Shown here: positions 2,040 through 28,984 of the stretch, piece after piece
How positions within the stretch are numbered: the stretch's first letter is position 1
Layout of the letters: each line of letters opens with the position of its first letter
Source of the DNA: Blastococcus saxobsidens
Lineage (GTDB): Bacteria; Actinomycetota; Actinomycetes; Mycobacteriales; Geodermatophilaceae
Assembly (NCBI RefSeq): GCF_002938435.1
Contig: NZ_POQT01000036.1
Span: forward strand, 1-47,742
Length of the DNA stretch: 47,742 nucleotides
Reading direction: 5' to 3'
Position numbers and translations under genes: made by a program
Notes under the pieces: model-generated
What the model saw: only the letters and a program-made list of their open reading frames with translations
Databases searched by the model: none
What the model was told of the DNA's origin: nothing

Positions 2040-2054
2040 CCACCGCCGGTCAGC
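2035..2054. terminator. Bidirectional hairpin between convergent genes
   Basis: Arms gctgacc (2035-2041) and ggtcagc (2048-2054) pair over 7 bp around a six-base loop. The stem covers the stop codons of both the MFS gene and the converging ABC permease gene. It may serve as a shared terminator. Confidence 0.4.
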
Positions 2055-2886
2055 GGCTGCGGTACAGGCGCGTGGTCAGCGGCAGGAACACCGCGGCCAG
2101 CCCGGCGGCCACCGCGAGCGACACCAGGATCGCGACGGCGTCCGGGGTGCCGTCCATCAACGAGCGGCAGGCCGTGGCCAGGATCGAGATCGGGTTGACC
2201 TCGACGAACGCCTGCAGCGGCCCGGGCAGGGTGGCCGGGTCGACGAACACGTTGGACAGGAACGTCAGCGGGAAGATGCCCATGAAGCCGGCGTTCATGA
2301 CCGCGTTCGGGCTGCGCAGCAGCAGGCCCAGCACGCAGAAGACCCACGAGAGCCCGAACGAGAAGACGACCACCATGGCCAGCGCGGCGAGCGCCCCGGC
2401 CACCCCGGCGTCGGGGCGGTACCCGAGCACGACACCCACCACGATGACCACCGTGCCGGCGATGGCGTACCTGACGCTGTCCCCCAGCAGCGAGCCCAGG
2501 AGCGGGGCCGGCCGCCAGATGGGCAGGGACCGGAACCGGTCGACGACGCCCTTGGTCAGGTCGGTGTTGAGCGAGATCCCGGCGTAGACGGTGGTGAAGA
2601 GCACCGACATGACCAGCAAGCCGGGCAGCGTGTAGTCCAGGTAGGCGCTGGTGGAGCCCGCGATCGCGCCGCCGAACAGGTACGTGAACATCAGCAGGAA
2701 CATCACCGGGGTCACCGTGACGTCGAGCAGCTGCTCAGGGACGTGCTTGACCTTGAGCATCCCGCGCCAGCCGAAGGTCAGGGCAGCCGAGAGGGGGCCG
2801 GGCCGCGGCGGGCGCGCGGTCGAGGCGATCGCCCGGCGGACGGCGGCGGTGTCGGCGGCGTCCGTGCCGGAGGTGGCTGCGCTCAT
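2050..2886 (-). CDS. ABC-2 type transporter permease (DrrB-like)
   Basis: A 278-residue integral membrane protein with about six hydrophobic segments, typical of ABC-2 permeases of the daunorubicin-resistance DrrB type (signature region around [17 protein letters not shown]). The start chosen is the ATG at 2886, which overlaps the stop of the ATPase gene in an ATGA, implying translational coupling; a longer open frame upstream overlaps the ATPase and is a shadow. With its partner it should form a two-component exporter in the cytoplasmic membrane, probably for a hydrophobic drug or lipid-like compound. Substrate unknown. Confidence 0.9.
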
Positions 2887-3866
2887 GACGTCTGCTCCTC
2901 GAGGGTGGCGGTGGGCGGCTCCTCGGCGGCGTGACCGGTCAGGGCCAGGAAGACCTCGTCCAGGCTCGGCTGGTCGAGGGAGAAGTCGGCGATGCCGATC
3001 CCGGCGCGCGCCAGCTCGGCCACGCCGAGGGCGGCCCGCGCCGAGTCGGTGCACTGCGCGGACAGCGCAGCGGGATCCGGCTCCAGGACGGCACTGCCCA
3101 CGGCGCGCTCCAGGAGCGCCGCGGCCTCCGGTCGCCGGTCCGGGTCGAGCAGCCGCACGTGCAGCGCGCCGGTGCCGACCGACGCCTTGAGCTGCCCCGG
3201 GGTGCCCTCGGCGATGACCCTGCCCCGGTCGATGACGGCGATGCCGTCGGCCAGCTGGTCGGCCTCCTCCAGGTACTGGGTGCAGAGCAGGATCGTCGTC
3301 CCCTCGGCCACCAGCGCGCGGGCGATCTCCCAGACGTGGTTGCGCGACCGCGGGTCCAGGCCCGTGGTCGGCTCGTCCAGGAACATCAGCCGCGGGGTGA
3401 CCACGATGCTGGCCGCGATGTCGAGCCGGCGCCGCATGCCCCCGGAGTAGTGCTTGACCAGCTTCCCGGCCGCGGCGGAGATCCCGAAAGCCTCCAGGAG
3501 CTCGTCGGCCCGCTCCCGAGCCGCGACCCGGCGCAGGCCGAGCAGCCGGCCGAGCAGCACGAGGTTCTCCCGGCCGGTCAGCTCCTCGTCGACCGAGGCG
3601 AGCTGGCCGGTGAGGCTCACCTGCTCCCGGACGGCGTCGGCCTCGGTGACCACGTCGTGGCCCAGCACCCGGGCGCTGCCCGAGTCGGGTCGGATCAGGG
3701 TGGCCAGCATCCGGATGGTGGTCGTCTTCCCGGCGCCGTTCGGGCCGAGCACGCCGTAGACGACCCCGGCGGGGACCGCGAGGTCGATGCCGGCCACCGC
3801 GGTGGTCTCCCCGTAGGTCTTGACCAGGCCGGTCGCCTCGATGGCCAGCGGTGCGTGCAGCGTCAT
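2883..3866 (-). CDS. ABC transporter ATP-binding protein (DrrA-like)
   Basis: A 327-residue ATPase. Walker A GPNGAGKT is at residues 41-48, the signature YSGGMRRR at about 140-147, and Walker B LMFLDEP at 160-166. The switch position is a Gln (CTQYLEEAD) as in DrrA proteins. The C-terminal 100 residues match the extra DrrA domain that regulates and docks to DrrB. The ATG at 3866 is preceded by gagg; an in-frame extension upstream lacks family similarity. It is the first gene of a two-gene operon and diverges from the DUF4178 gene cluster. Confidence 0.93.
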
Positions 3867-4022
3867 GGGTACCTCACCCGGAGCGGGAGTCGTCGTCCTT
3901 CCCTCTGTCAGACGAACTGTCGCCGACGAACTCATCGATGGCGAACGACTTTCCTCCCGTCCGCTGCGTCCGCCGGACACGGTGCCGTGCACCGCGCCCG
4001 ACCCGGCCCGGCCCGGCCACGC

Positions 4023-4028
4023 TAGGTT
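4023..4028 (+). promoter_or_regulatory. Possible -10 element (TAGGTT) for the DUF4178 operon
   Basis: TAGGTT fits the actinobacterial TANNNT -10 pattern and lies 40 bases before the start of the DUF4178 gene, giving a leader of about 30 bases that carries the ggaga ribosome site. No good -35 is visible. The 200-base gap 3867-4068 is the only intergenic space between the divergent drrA-like gene and this operon, so a promoter is expected here. Confidence 0.3.
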
Positions 4029-4068
4029 CGGAGACGGCCCGTCCCCCGTCCGCTGGGAGATCCGTTCG

Positions 4069-4686
4069 ATGTCCGATCTGCTGCTGGGCCTGCTGATCGC
4101 GGTGCTGGTCGCGCTCGCGGTCCTCGTCGCCGTGATCCTCGTGCTGCGCCGGCGCAACCTGGCGAAGGCCGCCGGTCCGCGCCGCCGGGTCGACCCGCTG
4201 GCCGACGAGCCCGACGTCTACGACCCGCACAGGATCGGCGTGGGCGACGTGATCACCTACGCCGGCATCGACCACGTCGTCCGCGGCACCATCGTGCTGG
4301 AGGAGGGCGGCATGACCTGGCGCGAGCACCTGCTCGACGGGTCCACCGGCCGCCGCTGGCTCACCGTCGAGGACGACGAGGGCGACCTGGAGATGACCCT
4401 GTGGATGCGGCGTGAGGGCACCGGCCTGACGCCGGACGGCGACGTCGTCCTCGACGACCGCGTGCACCGGCAGATCGAGCGCGGCCGTGCCACCTACACC
4501 GCCGAGGGCACCACCGGGACGCCGCCCAGCGGCACGATGGAGTACGCCGACTACGCGACCGCCGACAAGACCGGTCAGCTCGCCTTCGAGCGGTGGGCGC
4601 CCACGCAGTCGTGGGAGGTCTCCACCGGGCGCAGCGTCAGCCGCGGGGAGCTCACCGTCTACCACCGCACCGCCGAGACGCCGTGA
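4069..4686 (+). CDS. DUF4178 protein with N-terminal membrane anchor
   Basis: A 205-residue protein. Residues about 4-27 form one transmembrane helix followed by RRRN, so the rest is predicted cytoplasmic. The remainder is a DUF4178 domain, a beta-rich domain of unknown function ([21 protein letters not shown] and E/D-rich strands, then FERWAP and [11 protein letters not shown]). The start at 4069 has ggaga seven bases upstream; the longer open frame runs back into the divergent drrA-like gene. It is the first gene of a five-gene operon; its stop overlaps the next start. DUF4178 recurs beside polyamine-synthase-like enzymes and DUF350 proteins; a molecular role has not been shown as far as I know. 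Confidence 0.85.
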
Positions 4687-5192
4687 GCCTGCACCTCCTG
4701 GACGTGGAGCCGCGCGACGTCGTCGCCGCGGCCCTGGGCCTGGTCCTCGACCGGCCTGCCCCGCGCCCCCTGGCGGAGCTGAGGCTGGCCGACGGCGCCG
4801 GCGGCGAGATCGCGCTGGGCGTGCTCGGCGCCTCCCACGTGGTCACCGCCCTCGCCGGCGGGCGGCGGCTCACCGAGGAGGTCTCCTGCGACGCCGTCGG
4901 CGCCGGCGGGGAGCCCCTCCCCCGCCACCACCGCACCGGCGGCTACGAGCTCTCCTCGACCGTCGCCCGCGTCGGCCGCGCCGAGCTGGACGCCACGGCC
5001 GACCGGCTCCGCGCCCGCGCGGCCGGCGAGCCCGGCTGGCTGCTCGGCGCCTTCCCCGGCTCGACCGGCGCGCTGACCGCCCTCACCGCCGAGCCGCTCC
5101 CCGGAGGCGGCTGGACGTGGGAGACCTGGCACCTCTACCCCGACGGCGACGCCGGCGACGTCGTCACGACCCGCAGCAGGTGGAACCCGTGA
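4683..5192 (+). CDS. DUF2617 family protein
   Basis: A 169-residue soluble protein of the DUF2617 family, recognised by its N-terminus (LHLLDVEPRDVVAAALGL), the central ALGVLGASHVVT strand, HRTGGYELSSTV, and the C-terminal WTWETWHLYPD segment. It has no signal peptide or membrane helix. The GTG start at 4683 overlaps the preceding stop (GTGA), and its own stop overlaps the next GTG in the same way, so the three genes are translationally coupled. Function unknown; the fixed place in the cluster suggests a shared pathway with the aminopropyltransferase. Confidence 0.85.
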   Translation: MSLHLLDVEPRDVVAAALGLVLDRPAPRPLAELRLADGAGGEIALGVLGASHVVTALAGGRRLTEEVSCDAVGAGGEPLPRHHRTGGYELSSTVARVGRAELDATADRLRARAAGEPGWLLGAFPGSTGALTALTAEPLPGGGWTWETWHLYPDGDAGDVVTTRSRWNP

Positions 5193-5596
5193 GCGCACCA
5201 CGCCGGCTGGCCGCCCTGGCGCTGACCGCCGTCGTCCTGCTGACCGGGTGCGGCAGCGGTGGGGACGTCCGCGGCTTCCTCGAGGACACCTACCGGCTCA
5301 CCGACTCCGACGGCGACACCTCCGTCTACTCCTCCTCGGACCCGGTCGGCACCACCACCGCGGCCATCGCCGAGGCCGTCCCGCCGGCCGAGCGGCAGGC
5401 CGACGGCGGGAACGAGTACCTCCGCTACTCCGACGACATCGTGATCGTCAGCGCGGCGGCCGCCGGCAGCACCGTGCGGGTCGAGGACCTCGACGGCCGC
5501 TACCGGAGCGGCTTCTTCGCCTTCCTGGGCCCGGGCTTCCGGCCGGGTTCCCCCGTCGGGAGCGGCGGGGGCGGCGGCCCCGGAGACGGCAAGTGA
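5189..5596 (+). CDS. DUF4247 family lipoprotein
   Basis: A 135-residue protein with a lipoprotein signal peptide: basic start (SAPRRLA), hydrophobic run, and lipobox LLTGC with Cys at about residue 21. The mature part is a short DUF4247 domain (LEDTYRLTD, YSSSDPVGTTTAAIA, YLRYSDDIVIV, GSTVRVEDLDGRYRSGFF), then a Gly-rich tail. It should sit on the outer face of the membrane. The GTG start at 5189 overlaps the DUF2617 stop. It is the only exported member of the operon, so it may sense or handle an extracytoplasmic substrate of the system. Function unknown. Confidence 0.85.
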   Translation: MSAPRRLAALALTAVVLLTGCGSGGDVRGFLEDTYRLTDSDGDTSVYSSSDPVGTTTAAIAEAVPPAERQADGGNEYLRYSDDIVIVSAAAAGSTVRVEDLDGRYRSGFFAFLGPGFRPGSPVGSGGGGGPGDGK

Positions 5597-5639
5597 TCCA
5601 GCCCCGCAGCCCCCACCCGATCCCAGGAGGAACCCCGAC

Positions 5640-6104
5640 GTGAGCACGACATGGCAGGCGCTGGAGTTCGGCACCGTCGACGGCGACGCCCTGGGCCAGG
5701 GTGTCGTGGCGACGCTGCTGTTCTTCGTCATCGGCGTGGGCGTGCTGGCCCTCGGCTTCCTGGCGCTGGACCTGCTGACGCCGGGCAACCTGCGCACCCA
5801 GGTCTACCTCGACCACAACCCGAACGCCGCGATCCTGCTGGGCGCCAACCACCTGGCGCTGGCGATCATCGTCGTCACGGCGATCATGACCAGCGGCGAC
5901 AGCCTGGCCCAGGGACTCGTCGACACGGCGGTGTACGGCCTGGTCGGCGTGCTGCTCCAGGCACTGGCCCTGCGGGTGCTGGACGCCGCCATCCCGGCCG
6001 ACCTGCGCGCCCTGGTGAACGAGCCGCGGATGCGCGGCTCGGCCTGGGCCGTGGGCATCAGCCTGGTGGCCATCGGCGCGGTGAACGCCGCCGCCCTGTC
6101 CTGA
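5640..6104 (+). CDS. DUF350 membrane protein (YjfL-like)
   Basis: A 154-residue protein with four predicted transmembrane helices in two similar halves, the usual DUF350 layout (VVATLLFFVIGVGVLALGF, AAILLGANHLALAIIV, a third helix around residues 98-118, AVGISLVAIGAVNAAAL). The GTG at 5640 has a perfect aggagg at 5625-5630. E. coli YjfL belongs to the same family, in an operon with a PspA-like protein and a glutathionylspermidine-synthase-like ligase. The link to polyamine enzymes therefore recurs in unrelated lineages. Role unknown; a small transporter or membrane adaptor is plausible. Confidence 0.88.
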   Translation: MSTTWQALEFGTVDGDALGQGVVATLLFFVIGVGVLALGFLALDLLTPGNLRTQVYLDHNPNAAILLGANHLALAIIVVTAIMTSGDSLAQGLVDTAVYGLVGVLLQALALRVLDAAIPADLRALVNEPRMRGSAWAVGISLVAIGAVNAAALS

Positions 6105-6108
6105 GCCG

Positions 6109-7668
6109 ATGGCTGCGACCGCCACGCAGGCGCCGGTGGCCTCAGGCGTCCGCTCCCGGCCGCTGCTGCTGGCCGCGGTCGCGGTCTGCGCCGCCTGCGG
6201 GCTGGTCTACGAGCTGGTCCTGCTCACCCTGTCGGCCAGCCTGGTCGGCGGTGGCATCACCCAGACCTCGCTGATCGTCGCGGGTTTCGTCGCCGCGCTC
6301 GGTGCCGGTGCCCTGCTGGTCAAGCCGTTCCTGCACCGGCCGGCCAGCACGTTCGTCGCGGTGGAGATCCTGCTGGGCGTCGTCGGCGGGCTGAGCGCGG
6401 TCACCCTCTACGTCTCGTTCTCCTTCTACGGCACCAGCACCGTGGTGCTGCTCGTCGCGACCGCCGTCATCGGCGTGCTGGTGGGCGCCGAGGTGCCCCT
6501 GCTGATGACGCTGCTGCAGACCGGGCGCGCGGGCATCGACGCCGAGGGCTCCGGCAAGCTGCTCGCCGACCTCAACGCCGCCGACTACGCCGGGGCGCTG
6601 CTGGGCGGGTTGCTCTGGCCGTTCGTGCTCCTGCCCCTGGCCGGGCAGGTGCGCGGCGCGGCGCTGACCGGCGTCGTGAACCTGCTGGCCGCCGCCGTGG
6701 TCGCCGCGCTCCTGCTGCGCTCCCAGCTCAGCCCTCGCGCCCGGCGGGCGGCCACCGCCGCGCTGCTGCTGGCGGCCGCCGTGCTGGCCGTCCTGCTGTG
6801 GCGCGCGCAGGACATCGAGACGACGGCCCGCCAGCGCCTGTACGACGACCCGGTGGTGTCCGCCGACCGATCGGCCTACCAGGAGATCGTGCTGACCGAG
6901 CGCGCCGGCGACCTGCGGCTCTACCTCGACGGCGACCTGCAGTTCTCCAGCCGCGACGAGCACCGCTACACCGAGTCGCTGGTGTACCCCGCGCTCGCCC
7001 GGGACCCCGCCCGGGTGCTGATCCTCGGCGGTGGGGACGGGCTGGCCGCCCGCGACGTGCTCCGCCACCCGTCGGTGGCCGAGGTGGTGCAGGTAGAGCT
7101 CGACCCTGCCGTGGTGCAGCTCGCGCGCACCCGGCTGGCCGCGCTGAACGCCGGCGCCCTGGACGACCCCCGCGTGCAGGTCGTCCAGGACGACGCCTTC
7201 CGCTGGCTGCGTTCGCCGGCCGCCGCGGGCTTCGACGCGGTCGTCGTCGACATGCCCGACCCGGACACCCCGGTGCTGGGCCGGCTGTACTCGGAGGAGT
7301 TCTACGGCCTGGTCGCCGCGGCGCTCGCCCCCGACGGCCTGGTCAGCGTGCAGGCAGGCAGCCCGTACTCGACCCCCACCGCCTTCTGGCGCACGGTCTC
7401 CACCATGGAGGCCGCGGGGCTGGCGCCGGTGCCCTACCACGTGCACGTGCCGAGCTTCGGGGACTGGGGCTTCGCCCTGGCGCAGGCGGGGAGCAGCCCG
7501 CCGGGACTCGGGCTGTCCCCGTCCACCCCGCCCACGCGCTTCCTCGACGAGGCCGTCCTCGACGCCGCCGCCGTCTTCCCCACCGACCGGCCGCGGCAGC
7601 GGCTGAGCCCGTCCACGCTGGACCGGCCGCTGATCGTGGAGGACATGCGCGCCGGGTACGTCGGCTGA
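6109..7668 (+). CDS. Membrane-bound polyamine aminopropyltransferase (spermidine synthase-like)
   Basis: A 519-residue protein. About residues 17-230 hold seven or eight transmembrane helices. A spermidine synthase domain follows: YQEI and LYLDGDLQFSSRDEHRYTES for the amine pocket, the nucleotide-binding ILGGGDG at about 305-311, and the catalytic DMPDPD at about 381-386. Soluble SpeE moves an aminopropyl group from decarboxylated AdoMet to putrescine; the membrane-fused type has less certain substrates. No AdoMet decarboxylase gene is in the window. It starts four bases after the DUF350 stop and is the last gene of the operon. Confidence 0.87.
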   Translation: MAATATQAPVASGVRSRPLLLAAVAVCAACGLVYELVLLTLSASLVGGGITQTSLIVAGFVAALGAGALLVKPFLHRPASTFVAVEILLGVVGGLSAVTLYVSFSFYGTSTVVLLVATAVIGVLVGAEVPLLMTLLQTGRAGIDAEGSGKLLADLNAADYAGALLGGLLWPFVLLPLAGQVRGAALTGVVNLLAAAVVAALLLRSQLSPRARRAATAALLLAAAVLAVLLWRAQDIETTARQRLYDDPVVSADRSAYQEIVLTERAGDLRLYLDGDLQFSSRDEHRYTESLVYPALARDPARVLILGGGDGLAARDVLRHPSVAEVVQVELDPAVVQLARTRLAALNAGALDDPRVQVVQDDAFRWLRSPAAAGFDAVVVDMPDPDTPVLGRLYSEEFYGLVAAALAPDGLVSVQAGSPYSTPTAFWRTVSTMEAAGLAPVPYHVHVPSFGDWGFALAQAGSSPPGLGLSPSTPPTRFLDEAVLDAAAVFPTDRPRQRLSPSTLDRPLIVEDMRAGYVG

Positions 7669-7836
7669 CGCCTGTAGCGTTCTCCGATACCGGACACCGA
7701 CGGGCACTGCGCCCGCCCATCCCCGGCGCACCGGTCCGTGCCGGCCGACGCCTGCGGACGCGGTGTCCCCCGCACACCGTGGCGCGCAGCCCGATGCCCT
7801 CCGGCGTCGCGCGCCCCCGCACCGAGGAGAACCCCC

Positions 7837-9444
7837 GTGACCGCCGCCAGCTCCCCCGGCGAGGCCGCCCGCTCCGCGGTCGCGGAGGCCGCGCGCCGCC
7901 GCACCTTCGCCGTGATCAGCCACCCGGACGCCGGCAAGTCCACCCTCACCGAGGCCCTGGCCCTGCACGCCCGCGTCATCGGGCAGGCCGGCGCGGTGCA
8001 CGGCAAAGCGGGCCGCCGCGGCACGGTGTCGGACTGGATGGACATGGAGCGCGACCGCGGCATCTCCATCACGTCGGCCGCGCTGCAGTTCGGCTACCGC
8101 GACGCCGTCATCAACCTGCTGGACACCCCCGGCCACGCCGACTTCTCCGAGGACACCTACCGCGTGCTGACCGCGGTCGACGCCGCGGTGATGCTCGTCG
8201 ACGCCGCCAAGGGCCTCGAGGCGCAGACGATGAAGCTCTTCGCCGTCTGCAAGCACCGGGGCATCCCGATCGTGACCGTCATCAACAAGTGGGACCGCCC
8301 GGGCAAGGACGCCCTGGAGCTCATGGACGAGATCACCGAACGCACCGGGCTCACCCCCACCCCGCTGACCTGGCCGGTGGGCATCGCCGGTGACTTCCGC
8401 GGCGTGCTCGACCGGCGCTCCGGCGACTTCCGCCGCTTCACCCGGACCGCCGGCGGCGCCACGATCGCCCCCGAGGAGCTGCTGAGCGCCGAGGAGGCCA
8501 CCGCCCGGGAGGGCGACGTCTGGCTGCAGGCCCAGGAGGAGGCCGAGCTGCTCACCGAGACCGGCGCCGACCACGACCAGGAGTCATTCCTGGGCGGGGT
8601 CAGCACGCCGGTGCTGTTCGCCTCGGCGGTCTCCAACTTCGGCGTCGGCGCGCTGCTGGACACCCTGGTCGACCTGGCTCCGGCCCCGGCCGGCCGCCCC
8701 GACGCCGAGGGCGCCGTCCGCGGCCTCGCCGCGCCGTTCAGCGCGTTCGTCTTCAAGGTGCAGTCCGGCATGGACGCCGCGCACCGGGACCGGCTGGCCT
8801 ACATCCGGATCTGCTCGGGGGTGTTCGAGCGCGGGATGGTGGTCACCCACGGGAGGACCAGGCGGCCGTTCGCCACCAAGTACGCCCAGCAGGTGTTCGG
8901 CCGGGACCGCGAGGTCGTCGACCTGGCCTACCCCGGCGACGTCGTGGGCCTGGTGAACGCCAACGCGCTGGGCGTGGGCGACAGCCTCTACAGCGAGAAG
9001 CCGGTCACCTATCCCCCGGTCACCACGTTCGCCCCGGAACACTTCGCCGTCGTCCGGAGCAAGGACACCGCGAAGCACAAGCAGTTCCGCAAGGGCATCG
9101 AGCAGCTGGACTCCGAGGGTGTGGTGCAGGTGCTGCGCTCCGACCGCCGGGGCGACGGCTCACCGGTGCTGGCCGTGGTGGGGCCGATGCAGTTCGAGGT
9201 GGCGACGCACCGCATGGAGCACGAGTTCAACGCCGCGGTGCACCTGGACCGGCTGCCCTACAGCCTGGCCATGCGGACCGACGCGGAGTCGGTGCCGCTG
9301 GTGTCGGCCTCCGGGGGCACCGAGGTGGTCCAGCGGTCCAACGGCGAGCTGCTGGCGCTGTTCACCGACAAGTGGGCGTTGCGCATGCTCCAGCAGCGGC
9401 ACTCGACCATCACCCTCGAGCCCCTGGTCGCCGCGCAGCTCTGA
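7837..9444 (+). CDS. prfC: Peptide chain release factor 3
   Basis: A 535-residue translational GTPase that recycles class-I release factors from the ribosome after termination. G1 HPDAGKST is at residues 29-36, switch I RGISITSA at 74-81, G3 DTPGHADF at 96-103 and G4 NKWD at 150-153. The C-terminal two thirds (YAQQVFGRDREVVD, PMQFEVATHRMEHEF) are diagnostic of RF3 rather than EF-G. G4 reads NKWD where NKLD is usual; the key N, K and D are kept. The GTG at 7837 has gaggag seven bases upstream; 168 bases of non-coding leader precede it. It converges on the hydrolase gene with a 9-base gap. Confidence 0.96.
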   Translation: MTAASSPGEAARSAVAEAARRRTFAVISHPDAGKSTLTEALALHARVIGQAGAVHGKAGRRGTVSDWMDMERDRGISITSAALQFGYRDAVINLLDTPGHADFSEDTYRVLTAVDAAVMLVDAAKGLEAQTMKLFAVCKHRGIPIVTVINKWDRPGKDALELMDEITERTGLTPTPLTWPVGIAGDFRGVLDRRSGDFRRFTRTAGGATIAPEELLSAEEATAREGDVWLQAQEEAELLTETGADHDQESFLGGVSTPVLFASAVSNFGVGALLDTLVDLAPAPAGRPDAEGAVRGLAAPFSAFVFKVQSGMDAAHRDRLAYIRICSGVFERGMVVTHGRTRRPFATKYAQQVFGRDREVVDLAYPGDVVGLVNANALGVGDSLYSEKPVTYPPVTTFAPEHFAVVRSKDTAKHKQFRKGIEQLDSEGVVQVLRSDRRGDGSPVLAVVGPMQFEVATHRMEHEFNAAVHLDRLPYSLAMRTDAESVPLVSASGGTEVVQRSNGELLALFTDKWALRMLQQRHSTITLEPLVAAQL

Positions 9445-25064: not shown

Positions 25065-26033
25065 ATGACCGCCACCGCGCCGGCTGCCCCCGCCGTCTCC
25101 CCGGCGGACGCCGTCGAGCGGCAGCTGCAGGAGCAGTTCGACGCGACGATCGCCGCCCAGCACCGCATCGAGCCGCGCGACTGGATGCCCGAGGGGTACC
25201 GCCGGACGCTGATCCGGCAGATCGCCCAGCACGCGCACTCGGAGATCATCGGCATGCAGCCGGAGGGCGACTGGCTGCTGGCCGCACCCAGCCTCCGCCG
25301 CAAGGCGATCCTGCTGGCCAAGGTCCAGGACGAGGCCGGCCACGGCATGTACCTCTACTCCGCCGCGGAGACGCTCGGCGCCGACCGCGCCGATCTGACC
25401 GACAAGCTGATCGAGGGCCGCCAGAAGTACAGCTCGATCTTCAACTACCCGACGCTGACGTACGCCGACGTCGGGGTCATCGGCTGGCTGGTGGACGGCG
25501 CGGCGATCTGCAACCAGGTGCCGCTGTGCCGCTCCTCCTACGGCCCGTACGCCCGGGCCATGATCCGGGTCTGCAAGGAGGAGTCCTTCCACCAGCGGCA
25601 GGGCTACGAGCTGCTGATGACGATGATGCACGGCACCGGCGAGCAGCGGGCCATGGTCCAGGACGCCGTCGACCGGTGGTGGTGGCCCTCGCTGATGATG
25701 TTCGGTCCGCCCGACACCGACAGCCCCAACTCCGCCCGGTCCATGGCGTGGGGCATCAAGCGGCACAGCAACGACGAGCTGCGGCAGCGGTTCGTCGACA
25801 TGACCGTGCCGCAGGCGGAGTTCCTCGGCGTCACTCTCCCCGACCCCGACCTCTCCCTCGACCCGGCGACCGGCCGCTACCGGTTCGGCCCGATCGACTG
25901 GGAGGAGCTGAAGCGGGTGATCAGCGGGCAGGGTCCCTGCAACGCCGAGCGGATCGCCCGGCGCCGGGCCGCCCGCGACGACAACGCCTGGGTGACCGAG
26001 GCGGCGACGGCCTACGCGGAGAAGAACTCGTGA
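25065..26033 (+). CDS. paaA: Phenylacetyl-CoA 1,2-epoxidase subunit PaaA
   Basis: A 322-residue ferritin-like di-iron protein, the catalytic subunit of the multicomponent oxygenase that forms the ring-1,2-epoxide of phenylacetyl-CoA. Family segments: [22 protein letters not shown], then [17 protein letters not shown] (ligand ExxH), [13 protein letters not shown] (second ExxH) and [13 protein letters not shown]. The start at 25065 has aggagg four bases upstream. First gene of paaABCDE; its stop overlaps the paaB GTG. A PaaR-type operator controls the promoter. Confidence 0.96.
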
Positions 26034-26398
26034 CCGCGGACCTGACGGCCGAGGGCGGCAGAAGCACCCCGTCCCCCCCACCCCTCGCGAGCTCGGGGCG
26101 GGCCTCTGGACGGGGCCGGCGGGACTGGCCGCTGTACGAGGTCTTCGTCCGCGGCAAGCGCGGGCTCAACCACGTGCACGTCGGCTCGCTGCACGCGGCG
26201 GACGACGAGATGGCGGTGCACGCCGCCCGCGACGTCTACACCCGGCGCAACGAGGGCGTGAGCATCTGGGTCGTGAAGGCGGCCGACATCACCGCCTCCA
26301 GCCCCGACGAGAAGGACCCGATGTTCGCGCCCAGCGGGGACAAGGTCTACCGGCACCCGACCTTCTACGAGATCCCCGACGGCGTCCCCCACATGTGA
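26030..26398 (+). CDS. paaB: Phenylacetyl-CoA epoxidase subunit PaaB
   Basis: A 122-residue protein. The PaaB domain runs from [20 protein letters not shown] to the end ([42 protein letters not shown]). PaaB bridges PaaAC heterodimers in the holoenzyme. The GTG at 26030 overlaps the paaA stop and would add a 34-residue Ser/Pro/Gly-rich extension before the domain; family members of about 95 residues lack it. No alternative start nearer the domain has a clear ribosome site. Confidence 0.93.
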
Positions 26399-26440
26399 GG
26401 CGCCGGGCGTCCCGGCAGAGGCACCCCGAAGAGGAGAGGC

Positions 26441-27352
26441 ATGGCGCACGAGGAGACGGTGTACGACGCACTGGACCTCGCCCACGGCGGCGAGGGGCAG
26501 TGGGCGTTCGGCACCGGGTTCGACGACCCGCTCGCCGGCGTCGACACCACCGTGCCCGACGGCGTCGACCCCGCGGACCTGGGCGCCTACTGCCTCATGC
26601 TCGGCGACGACGCGCTCGTGCTCGCCCAGCGCCTCACCGAGTGGATCACCGCCGCCCCCGAGCTCGAGGAGGAGGTGGCCCTGGCCAACATCGCGCTGGA
26701 CCTCCTCGGCCAGGCCCGGCTGCTGCTGGCCCGGGCCGGCGCCGCCGGGGTCCTGGGCCGGTCGCGGGAGCTCGCCGGGCCGACGATCCCCGACGAGGAC
26801 GCGCTGGCCTGCTTCCGCGACCCCGACGAGTTCCGCTGCACCGCGCTGGTGGCGGCGCCGAACGGGGACTTCGGCCGCACCATGGTCCGCCTGCTCGTGG
26901 CGACCACGCTCCGGCTCGCGGTCCTCACCCGGCTGCGCGCGAGCCGCGACCCGGTGCTGGCCGCACTCGCCGCCAAGGGCGCGCACGAGCTCACCTACCA
27001 CCGCGACTACGCCGCCCGCTGGGTGCTCCGGCTGGGCGACGGCACCGCGGAGTCCTCCCGCCGCGCGCAGGCCGGGGTCGACGACGTGTGGCCGCTGCTG
27101 GCCGACGTCTTCTCCCCCACCGACGTCGAGCGCCGGCTGGCCGCTGCCGGCGTGGCCGTCGACCCGTCCGGCACCCGCGCGGAGGTCACCGACGTCCTCA
27201 CCACCGTGCTCCGGCGCGCCACGCTGCGGGTTCCTCCCTGGCCGGCCGACGAGGCCCCCGCGGGCCGGCACGGCCGGCACGGCCCGGAGCTGGTCGACCT
27301 GCTGTCCCGGCTGCAGGGGCTGGCGCGGCAGCACCCGGCGGCGACGTGGTGA
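26441..27352 (+). CDS. paaC: Phenylacetyl-CoA epoxidase structural subunit PaaC
   Basis: A 303-residue ferritin-like protein lacking the full di-iron site, forming a tight heterodimer with PaaA. Family segments: GAYCLMLGDDALVLAQRLTEW, ELEEEVALANIALDLLGQAR, DEFRCTALVAAPNGDF, KGAHELTYHRDYAARWVLRLG. Ribosome site gaggaga upstream of the ATG at 26441. The stop overlaps the paaD GTG. Confidence 0.95.
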   Translation: MAHEETVYDALDLAHGGEGQWAFGTGFDDPLAGVDTTVPDGVDPADLGAYCLMLGDDALVLAQRLTEWITAAPELEEEVALANIALDLLGQARLLLARAGAAGVLGRSRELAGPTIPDEDALACFRDPDEFRCTALVAAPNGDFGRTMVRLLVATTLRLAVLTRLRASRDPVLAALAAKGAHELTYHRDYAARWVLRLGDGTAESSRRAQAGVDDVWPLLADVFSPTDVERRLAAAGVAVDPSGTRAEVTDVLTTVLRRATLRVPPWPADEAPAGRHGRHGPELVDLLSRLQGLARQHPAATW

Positions 27353-27897
27353 GCCGGGTCGCCCGGGCGATCCGGCGCGGCCGCGCGGAGCCGCCCACCC
27401 GGACGGTCGACCCCCGGGCGGTCGCCGGCGCCGTCGTCGACCCGGAGCTGCCGATGCTCACGCTCGCCGACCTGGGGGTGCTGCGCGACGTCCGCACCGG
27501 CGCCGGCGGCACCGTGGTCGTCGAGATCACCCCGACCTACACCGGCTGCCCGGCGCTGGGGGTCATGCGGGCCGACCTGCTGCACGCCCTGCACTCCGCC
27601 GGTTTCCCCGACGTCGAGGTGCGCACCGTGCTGGCGCCTCCGTGGTCCACCGACTGGATCACCGAGGCCGGGCGCCGCGCGCTCGCCGCGGCCGGCATCG
27701 CCCCACCGGGGCCGGCACCGGTCCGTCCCGACGGGCCCGTCCCGCTGGACCTCGGACCGACGCGACGCACCGCCGCCTGCCCGCTGTGCGGGAGTGCCGA
27801 GACCGAGCAGACCAGCGAGTTCGGCGCCACGGCCTGCACCGCGCTGCGCCGCTGCCGGGCGTGCCGCGAGCCCTTCGAGCACCTCAAGGAGCTCTGA
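27349..27897 (+). CDS. paaD: Phenylacetate catabolism protein PaaD
   Basis: A 182-residue protein with a DUF59/MIP18-like domain (VVDPELPMLTLADLGVLRDV, PTYTGCPALGVMRADL) and a C-terminal zinc-ribbon-like end (CPLCG, then CTALRRCRACREPFEHL). PaaD is thought to mature the Fe-S or di-iron centres of the oxygenase. GTG start at 27349 overlaps the paaC stop; a GTG three bases earlier is equally in frame. Confidence 0.93.
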   Translation: MSRVARAIRRGRAEPPTRTVDPRAVAGAVVDPELPMLTLADLGVLRDVRTGAGGTVVVEITPTYTGCPALGVMRADLLHALHSAGFPDVEVRTVLAPPWSTDWITEAGRRALAAAGIAPPGPAPVRPDGPVPLDLGPTRRTAACPLCGSAETEQTSEFGATACTALRRCRACREPFEHLKEL

Positions 27898-27904
27898 GGC
27901 GGCG

Positions 27905-28984
27905 ATGACGGGAACCCCGCACCGGAGGCGCCCACGATTCCACCGCCTGGCCGTGGCCGACGTGCAGCGGCTCACCGACGACGCCGTCGCGGTGACCTTC
28001 GCGGTGCCGCCGGAGCTGGCCGAGGACTACCGGTTCCGCCCCGGCCAGGCGCTCACCCTGCGCCGGGTGGACGGCGACCGCGACGAGCGCCGCTCCTACT
28101 CGATCTGCGCTCCCGCCGGTGCCCCGCCGCGGGTCGGCGTGCGCGAGGTGCCGGGCGGGTTCTTCTCCTCCTGGCTGGTGCACGAGGTCCGGCCGGGCGA
28201 CGAGATCGACGTCCTGCCGCCGTCGGGCACGTTCACCACCGACCTCGACGGCCCGGCCGACCACGTGTTCGTGGTCGCCGGGTCCGGCATCACCCCGGCC
28301 CTCTCGCTCGCCGCCACCGTGCTGGGCGACGGCGAGTCGACGGTGACCGTCTTCTACGGCAACCGGCGCACCAGCACGGTCATGTTCGCCGACGAGCTGG
28401 CCGACCTGAAGGACCGCCACGGTCCCCGCCTCCAGCTGGTGCACGTGCTCTCCCGGGAGCCGCGCGACGCCGAGCTCACCAGCGGCCGGCTGGACGCCGA
28501 CCGGCTGGGTGCCCTGCTCGGCGCACTGGTCGACGTCGAGGGCGTGGACCACTGGTGGCTGTGCGGTCCGCACGGGATGGTGACCGACGCGCGGGCGCTG
28601 CTCGCCGAGCTGGGCGTACCGGCCGACCGGGTGCACCAGGAGCTGTTCTACGTCGACGACGTCCCGCCCGAGCCGGTCCGGGGCGACGACGAGACGGTCG
28701 AGGGGCCGAGCAGCCAGGTCACCGTCGTGCTGGACGGCCGCACGACGACGCTCGCCCTGCCGCGGGGCGTGCCCGTGCTCGACTCCGCCCAGCAGGTCCG
28801 GTCGGACCTGCCCTTCGCCTGCAAGGGCGGCGTCTGCGGCACCTGCCGCGCACGAGTCACCGACGGGCAGGTGGAGATGCGCCGGAACTACGCGCTGGAG
28901 CCCGGCGAGGTGGCCGCCGGCTACGTGCTGACCTGCCAGTCGCTGCCCCTGACGGACCGCGTCACGGTCGACTTCGACGCCTGA
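27905..28984 (+). CDS. paaE: Phenylacetyl-CoA epoxidase reductase PaaE
   Basis: A 359-residue reductase: FAD domain (YRFRPGQALTLRR, ERRSYSICAP), NAD(P) domain (VAGSGITPALSLAATVL, WWLCGPHGMV) and a C-terminal plant-type 2Fe-2S ferredoxin domain with cysteines in CKGGVCGTC and LTC. It passes electrons from NADPH to the PaaAC di-iron site. Last gene of the cluster; paaG, paaZ, paaJ, paaK and paaI are not in the window. Confidence 0.95.
   Translation: MTGTPHRRRPRFHRLAVADVQRLTDDAVAVTFAVPPELAEDYRFRPGQALTLRRVDGDRDERRSYSICAPAGAPPRVGVREVPGGFFSSWLVHEVRPGDEIDVLPPSGTFTTDLDGPADHVFVVAGSGITPALSLAATVLGDGESTVTVFYGNRRTSTVMFADELADLKDRHGPRLQLVHVLSREPRDAELTSGRLDADRLGALLGALVDVEGVDHWWLCGPHGMVTDARALLAELGVPADRVHQELFYVDDVPPEPVRGDDETVEGPSSQVTVVLDGRTTTLALPRGVPVLDSAQQVRSDLPFACKGGVCGTCRARVTDGQVEMRRNYALEPGEVAAGYVLTCQSLPLTDRVTVDFDA

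Follow-up and report, generated by a model that had tools for sequence, protein, structure and literature searches.

The operon and its membrane aminopropyltransferase

The DNA analyzed here, a 47,742-nucleotide stretch of Blastococcus saxobsidens (contig NZ_POQT01000036.1, hereafter the window), contains five plus-strand genes, A–B–C–D–E, which fill positions 4069–7668 exactly and encode proteins of the DUF4178, DUF2617, DUF4247 and DUF350 families, followed by an aminopropyltransferase fused to a membrane domain. A comparison of actinobacterial genomes carrying gene E revealed that DUF2617 and SpeD, the S-adenosylmethionine (AdoMet) decarboxylase, largely exclude one another, and from this mutual exclusion we infer that both provide decarboxylated AdoMet (dcAdoMet) to E. 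The five-gene operon and the GTGA overlaps joining its first three genes, both proposed in the initial annotation, were borne out by the coordinates and by Pfam:

4069..4686, plus strand: gene A, DUF4178 protein, 205 amino acids (PF13785, E-value 5.8e-29, residues 58–191)
4683..4686, plus strand: GTGA overlap of the stop of A and the start of B
4683..5192, plus strand: gene B, DUF2617 protein, 169 amino acids (PF10936, E-value 1.6e-48)
5189..5192, plus strand: GTGA overlap of the stop of B and the start of C
5189..5596, plus strand: gene C, DUF4247 putative lipoprotein, 135 amino acids (PF14042, E-value 1.8e-28)
5640..6104, plus strand: gene D, DUF350 membrane protein, 154 amino acids (PF03994, E-value 2.3e-23)
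6109..7668, plus strand: gene E, membrane domain fused to a spermidine-synthase-like aminopropyltransferase domain, 519 amino acids (Spermine_synth PF01564, E-value 5.1e-32, residues 284–457)

As read from the translations, the product of gene A has a hydrophobic N terminus, likely a membrane anchor, ahead of its DUF4178 domain, and that of gene C carries a lipobox (LLTGC, residues 17–21); the product of gene B has no evident signal or membrane segment. Gene E matched the NCBIfam model NF002956/PRK03612, “polyamine aminopropyltransferase,” with an E-value of 1.7e-190 and 633.8 bits (cut-off 472) over residues 7–517 of 519, and is thereby a full-length membrane-plus-transferase protein of the kind that defines the PRK03612 fusion system. 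The best matches to solved aminopropyltransferases cover residues 249–465. Like SpeE, the protein has a transferase domain with the dcAdoMet aspartates; unlike SpeE, it is fused to a membrane domain. Genes for DUF350 and DUF4178 adjoin gene E, as assigned by Pfam, and do so in the PRK03612 cluster as well.

Gene order was compared across 33 wide loci from actinobacteria, one of them the window. The members found lie on one strand in all 33, following the order A–B–C–D–E, with some missing, in 32 loci and the order D–A–B–E in one, and all five were found in 13. This conservation argues that the operon is not a product of chance. The scattering of the genes in relatives, which the initial annotation had regarded as grounds for doubting a shared system, was not observed in the relatives examined, where the members stand together and in order. 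In three loci (f5), B and E were the sole members found by the profiles, which suggests that DUF2617 and E are the core of the system. One cluster (L129, G121) holds two additional predicted genes, of 90 amino acids between DUF4178 and DUF2617 and of 237 amino acids between DUF4247 and DUF350. The closest named relatives of the window DUF2617, among the best 120 of 307 matches, belong to Blastococcus, and a scan of positions 3800–8000 for promoters revealed no promoter-like site.

Operons comprising a spermidine-synthase fusion resembling the major facilitator superfamily (MFS), DUF350, DUF4178 and a lipoprotein are described in the portion of PMC11237479 (2024) considered here, together with a variant containing DUF4247 and DUF2617 (examples CCP45395 and CCP45394). 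That account predicts an enzyme for DUF2617, takes DUF4247 and DUF2617 to stand in for PspA and CesT/Tir, mentions an AdoMet decarboxylase in a band-7 variant and cites Li et al. 2019. The PspA/band-7 operon of that account shares its E, DUF350 and DUF4178 families with the window. The same portion draws no link between DUF2617 and the absence of SpeD, and neither it nor the portion of PMC13118837 considered here proposes DUF2617 as a substitute for SpeD. In a comparable excerpt of PMC11841054, spermine synthesis is reported in Streptomyces and Mycobacterium, and M. tuberculosis is stated to express speE (Rv2601), the donor enzyme not being named. The association of these genes in an operon is already published; the rule of exclusion between DUF2617 and SpeD is the addition of the present comparison.

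Among the five gene products of the window, Pfam gave no match to the PspA or CesT/Tir families. The MFS-spermidine synthase fusion of Li et al. 2019 reportedly occurs with an active SpeD, does not substitute for spermidine synthase in E. coli and is associated with DUF350, and aminopropylation of a target other than putrescine is said to have been proposed for it. By this account, the likeness to the window lies in a fusion protein like E and in the association with DUF350; that system is said to have a functional SpeD, whereas in the window genome DUF2617 is present and SpeD was not found.

Distribution of DUF2617 and SpeD

The genome to which the window belongs (4.5 Mb, 100% complete) gave no match to the SpeD profile PF02675, a search that was positive in 8 of 14 named control genomes. 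The 14 controls were searched with profiles for SpeD, aminopropyltransferase and DUF2617. The aminopropyltransferase profile matched in 10 of them. Eight of the 10 have SpeD, and DUF2617 is present in exactly the two that do not (Corynebacterium glutamicum and Haloferax volcanii); the transferase match of Haloferax volcanii lies below the family cut-off.

A sample of the class (197 genomes) contained 45 genomes with a full-length E and 42 with DUF2617, all 42 being within the 45, in agreement with the co-occurrence expected from the initial annotation. SpeD was found in 7 of the 197, five of these with E. The 45 E genomes divide into 40 with DUF2617 only, 3 with SpeD only, 2 with both and none with neither. 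Each of the three lacking DUF2617 (G050, G235 and G311) has SpeD, a pattern that prompted a test in a second sample, taken from the order. Here a full-length E was found in 85 of 278 genomes, and the counts cover 80 of the 85, omitting five relatives from the window's own genus (G610, G642, G658, G673 and G697). DUF2617 was present in 62 of the 80 and SpeD in 18 (DUF2617 only, 61; SpeD only, 17; both, 1; neither, 1; Fisher test, 3e-15). The sole genome with neither gene, G551, is 82% complete. Together with G121 and G162, which come from other groups of the phylum and have DUF2617 and no SpeD match, the two samples give a union of 114 actinobacterial E genomes: 92 with DUF2617 only, 18 with SpeD only, 3 with both and 1 with neither (Fisher test, 6e-17, a value that overstates the evidence because the genomes are related). 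No SpeD match was found in 93 of the 114. A SpeD with intact catalytic residues was lacking in 96, and 95 of these 96 have DUF2617.

The E genomes without DUF2617 fall in four families (f2, f8, f103 and f109). On a quick tree of E, built from 50 actinobacterial and two outgroup rows and omitting second E copies, the interrupted L096 and genomes without a suitable E locus, the DUF2617 state changes at least four times, with gain and loss indistinguishable. Over random pairings on this tree, SpeD differed in the direction opposite to DUF2617 in an average of 3.9 of the 4 pairs, and in no pair did the two differ in the same direction; with four pairs, the p value of a sign test cannot fall below 0.125. 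The class-2 AdoMet decarboxylase PF01536 was matched in 0 of 80, which is uninformative since no control genome matched either, and plasmid records contained no DUF2617 match at an E-value ≤ 0.1.

SpeD of all 18 E genomes without DUF2617 keeps the pyruvoyl residue Ser63 as well as His68 and Cys83. The His lies in an HTWPE motif (or HTYPE, HSYPE) and the Cys in TCG or SCG; in G311, Gln replaces the Glu preceding the pyruvoyl Ser. In the three genomes with both genes, the SpeD-like proteins, whose catalytic residues were inspected after the exceptions had been seen, have Cys83 replaced by Tyr (G023 and G193) or His68 replaced by Tyr (G482). At L131 (G344) and L249 (G482), the SpeD-like proteins, of 122 and 134 amino acids, are diverged and carry Tyr for the His of HTWPE. 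The E cluster was examined in 11 of the 18 genomes; it retains the order A–C–D–E in 10, and in the eleventh (G475) consists of D–E at a contig end.

Where this was looked at in the genomes without DUF2617, SpeD is located far from E or on a different contig, and its surroundings vary. A spermidine-synthase-like gene adjoins it in 12 of 12 f109 loci of one set (L213–L224); where scanned, SpeD of G691 is also beside a gene of the ornithine/arginine-decarboxylase type; and G235 has a SpeD–SpeE fusion with a decarboxylase alongside. In G311 and G475 the only SpeD found sits in a BpsA-type cassette that also contains genes for HAD-like and carrier proteins, and in G050 the predicted genes beside SpeD include no spermidine-synthase, decarboxylase or BpsA-type partner. 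dcAdoMet is what these contexts share.

The BpsA-type cassette, the carrier protein of which was Pfam-scanned in the G193 copy only, recurs at L108, L109, L110 and L248 and comprises a SpeD-like protein, a BpsA_C protein, a HAD-like protein, which we take to be of the FkbH type, and a small carrier-like protein. The BpsA_C protein of L108 and of L109 includes a GNAT domain, and the carrier-like protein is confirmed by Pfam in L109. The cassette is seemingly a small natural-product pathway that uses aminopropyl groups, and in G023 and G193 its SpeD has no catalytic Cys.

Outside actinobacteria, the E loci scanned came from plasmids and from 80 named genomes, many of the 80 being truncated at contig ends. 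SpeD was found inside the fetched E locus in 45 of the 80; in 43 it lies ≤4 kb from E, and 38 of these 43 have the two genes on one strand. It was found elsewhere in the genome for 29 of the remaining 35, so that 74 of the 80 loci or genomes have it in total. A Novosphingobium operon, for example, encodes SPFH, DUF4178, DUF4178, a small protein, DUF350, E, a flavin adenine dinucleotide (FAD) oxidoreductase and speD. DUF2617 was found in 0 of the 80 E loci and in 0 of the 47 genomes searched at the genome level for both families, namely the 35 whose locus holds no SpeD and 12 whose locus does. For the remaining six of the 80 no SpeD was found; half of them are draft genomes (L162, L168 and L170) and half are Elusimicrobia (L176, L179 and L180). 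The Elusimicrobial clusters look whole, with DUF4178-like genes, a DUF350-like gene, E and an oxidoreductase-like gene, and neither SpeD nor DUF2617 was found in these three genomes. At the Tritonibacter plasmid locus L126, no SpeD lies within 7 kb, the stretch that was searched in place of the whole genome.

The donor site of E and the DUF2617 protein

The residues of the two proteins on which the comparison turns are encoded as follows:

4830..4838, plus strand: codons of Ala50-Ser51-His52 of DUF2617 (Ser51 and His52 unsubstituted; 53 of 56 rows have a letter at these positions)
6970..6972, plus strand: codon of Thr288 of E (aligned with Gln79 of plant spermidine synthase; most relatives have His)
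7036..7038, plus strand: codon of Asp310 of E, in GGGDG (aligned with Asp103 of plant spermidine synthase)
7249..7251, plus strand: codon of Asp381 of E (aligned with Asp173 of plant spermidine synthase)

In a model of a plant spermidine synthase, the amino group of dcAdoMet is held by Gln79, Asp103 and Asp173, and D103I together with Q79T gave the enzyme AdoMet methyltransferase activity (PMC3725402, in the portion considered here). The window E carries Asp310, Asp381 and Asp384 at the dcAdoMet/catalytic Asp positions. All three are Asp in 85 of 85 non-actinobacterial rows and, counting one row per copy in actinobacteria, in 11 of 11 E copies from genomes without DUF2617. The copies from DUF2617 genomes keep them in 52, 52 and 50 of 53 cases, respectively, the departing rows being G261 at position 310 and G171 at position 381. 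Because these aspartates are kept, the donor used by E has probably not changed in DUF2617 genomes.

Across 56 distinct rows of DUF2617, the residues Asp12, Ser51, His52, Glu65, Thr132, Trp146, His150 and Tyr152 are unsubstituted (52–55 rows with a letter at the position), and at position 69, 52 of 54 rows have Cys and the remaining two, L241 (G529) and L096 (G353), have Tyr. The SpeD-like proteins of G023 and G193 show the same replacement at their catalytic Cys. The AlphaFold2 model of DUF2617 (predicted local distance difference test, pLDDT, 93.6) comprises a β-rich N-terminal half and a helix-grip-like C-terminal half with β-α-β4 arrangement, which scored 95.9 when modelled alone. Ser51 is found just ahead of strand 52–58 and Cys69 just behind strand 61–68, a placement that presumably recalls the pyruvoyl Ser and the Cys around the strand pair of SpeD.

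A Ser-His motif followed 17–19 residues on by a Cys is shared by DUF2617 and class 1 SpeD (PF02675), from which DUF2617 differs in having no significant profile relation and no fold match among those listed. Pfam gave no PF02675 match in the window DUF2617, no SpeD was among the matches listed in fold searches with the whole model or its C-terminal half, and alignment of the N-terminal half to SpeD was no better than that of shuffled sequences. The profile and fold searches do not relate the two proteins; what is claimed here is an exchanged function and not common descent. Kinship of DUF2617 with DUF4178 was considered and rejected (hhalign E-value 0.39), and a pyridoxal phosphate (PLP) enzyme is unlikely because no Lys is conserved; in the two columns where Lys is commonest, the window carries Glu42 and His83.

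Two predicted minus-strand genes at 2050–3866, by their look an ABC-type permease and ATPase, point away from gene A, with about 200 bp between the start of gene A and that of the divergent gene. An 80-bp tandem repeat at 403–665 (3.3 copies, 98% match) sits at and just past the end of a predicted gene at 24–416. At 25065–28984, a plus-strand gene run resembles a phenylacetate-degradation (paaA-E) cluster.

Proposed role of DUF2617 and its alternatives

The initial annotation had read the operon as a machine that makes, moves or attaches a polyamine-like group at the membrane. A shared system around a membrane aminopropyltransferase is supported, and a polyamine-like group is plausible because E keeps the dcAdoMet site; the published association, the absence of SpeD from the host and the replacement-like behaviour of DUF2617 had been overlooked. 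It appears somewhat probable that the operon is the actinobacterial form of the known membrane aminopropyltransferase system, with DUF2617 supplying the donor, most simply as an AdoMet decarboxylase not homologous to SpeD. The product of gene E would transfer the aminopropyl group of dcAdoMet to an acceptor at the membrane. Outside actinobacteria the donor would come from SpeD, often encoded beside E, and in actinobacterial E genomes without a working SpeD it would be DUF2617 that supplies dcAdoMet, this gene seemingly being lost where a working SpeD exists for other reasons. More tentatively than donor supply itself, DUF2617 may decarboxylate AdoMet directly, in an active site that could be formed by Ser51 (possibly a pyruvoyl precursor), His52, Glu65, Cys69 and His150. 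The anchored DUF4178 protein, the DUF350 membrane protein and the outward-facing DUF4247 lipoprotein would be accessory, handling or sensing the product.

The exchange of DUF2617 and SpeD can be read in other ways. DUF2617 might serve the acceptor side or regulation and be needed only where no aminopropylated polyamine is made, the polyamines of SpeD genomes otherwise doing its job. SpeD does stand beside polyamine genes in the 12 f109 loci, G691 and G235, so that product and donor are inseparable there, and the helix-grip-like half of DUF2617 would suit a binder of small molecules or lipids. We nevertheless consider this unlikely: the only SpeD found in G475 and in G311 lies in the BpsA/carrier-protein cassette, which makes dcAdoMet the likelier shared compound, and outside actinobacteria SpeD often adjoins E itself. 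It seems less probable again that E in DUF2617 genomes uses AdoMet, for methyl or 3-amino-3-carboxypropyl transfer, and that DUF2617 finishes the product, for instance by removing the carboxylate. Such a use of AdoMet would agree with a window genome without SpeD. The residue aligned with Gln79 also calls for caution and may weigh against donor supply by DUF2617, for Thr288 of the window occupies the position of Q79T in the plant enzyme (PMC3725402, same portion), and Thr was seen there in 9 of 53 copies from DUF2617 genomes (the window and eight others) and in none from genomes without DUF2617. The plant switch, however, required D103I too, whereas Asp310 is kept in the window and nearly all DUF2617 genomes as counted above (52/53), and residue 288 is His rather than Thr in 43 of the 53.

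A membrane-stress module formed by DUF2617 and DUF4247 in place of the PspA–CesT/Tir pair, with the SpeD pattern as a secondary effect, would follow the listing of the two as such a replacement in PMC11237479 (portion as above). This we regard as quite improbable, since DUF4247 remains in 10 complete clusters without DUF2617, so that the two are not one unit, and DUF2617 tracks SpeD. The possibility we credit least is that the exclusion reflects shared ancestry, a few clades having lost DUF2617 and held SpeD by chance. There are only about four switches, with a sign-test p of 0.125, but the genomes without DUF2617 are spread over four families, the SpeD-like proteins of the three genomes with both genes each lack one catalytic residue, and the same complement was observed in the 14 control genomes.

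Donor supply by DUF2617 is the reading we prefer. A narrower form of it, put forward tentatively and at a little under an even chance, makes DUF2617 an AdoMet decarboxylase of a new class not homologous to SpeD; it might process itself at Ser51 and would feed the membrane aminopropyltransferase in actinobacteria and perhaps haloarchaea. If this is true, DUF2617 would fill the missing step in organisms that have an annotated spermidine synthase but no SpeD, of which Corynebacterium glutamicum is a named example, having a gene named for polyamine synthesis and no known donor enzyme. Were DUF2617 the donor enzyme, an uncharacterised family would gain a function, and the donor would be at hand for finding the target of E.

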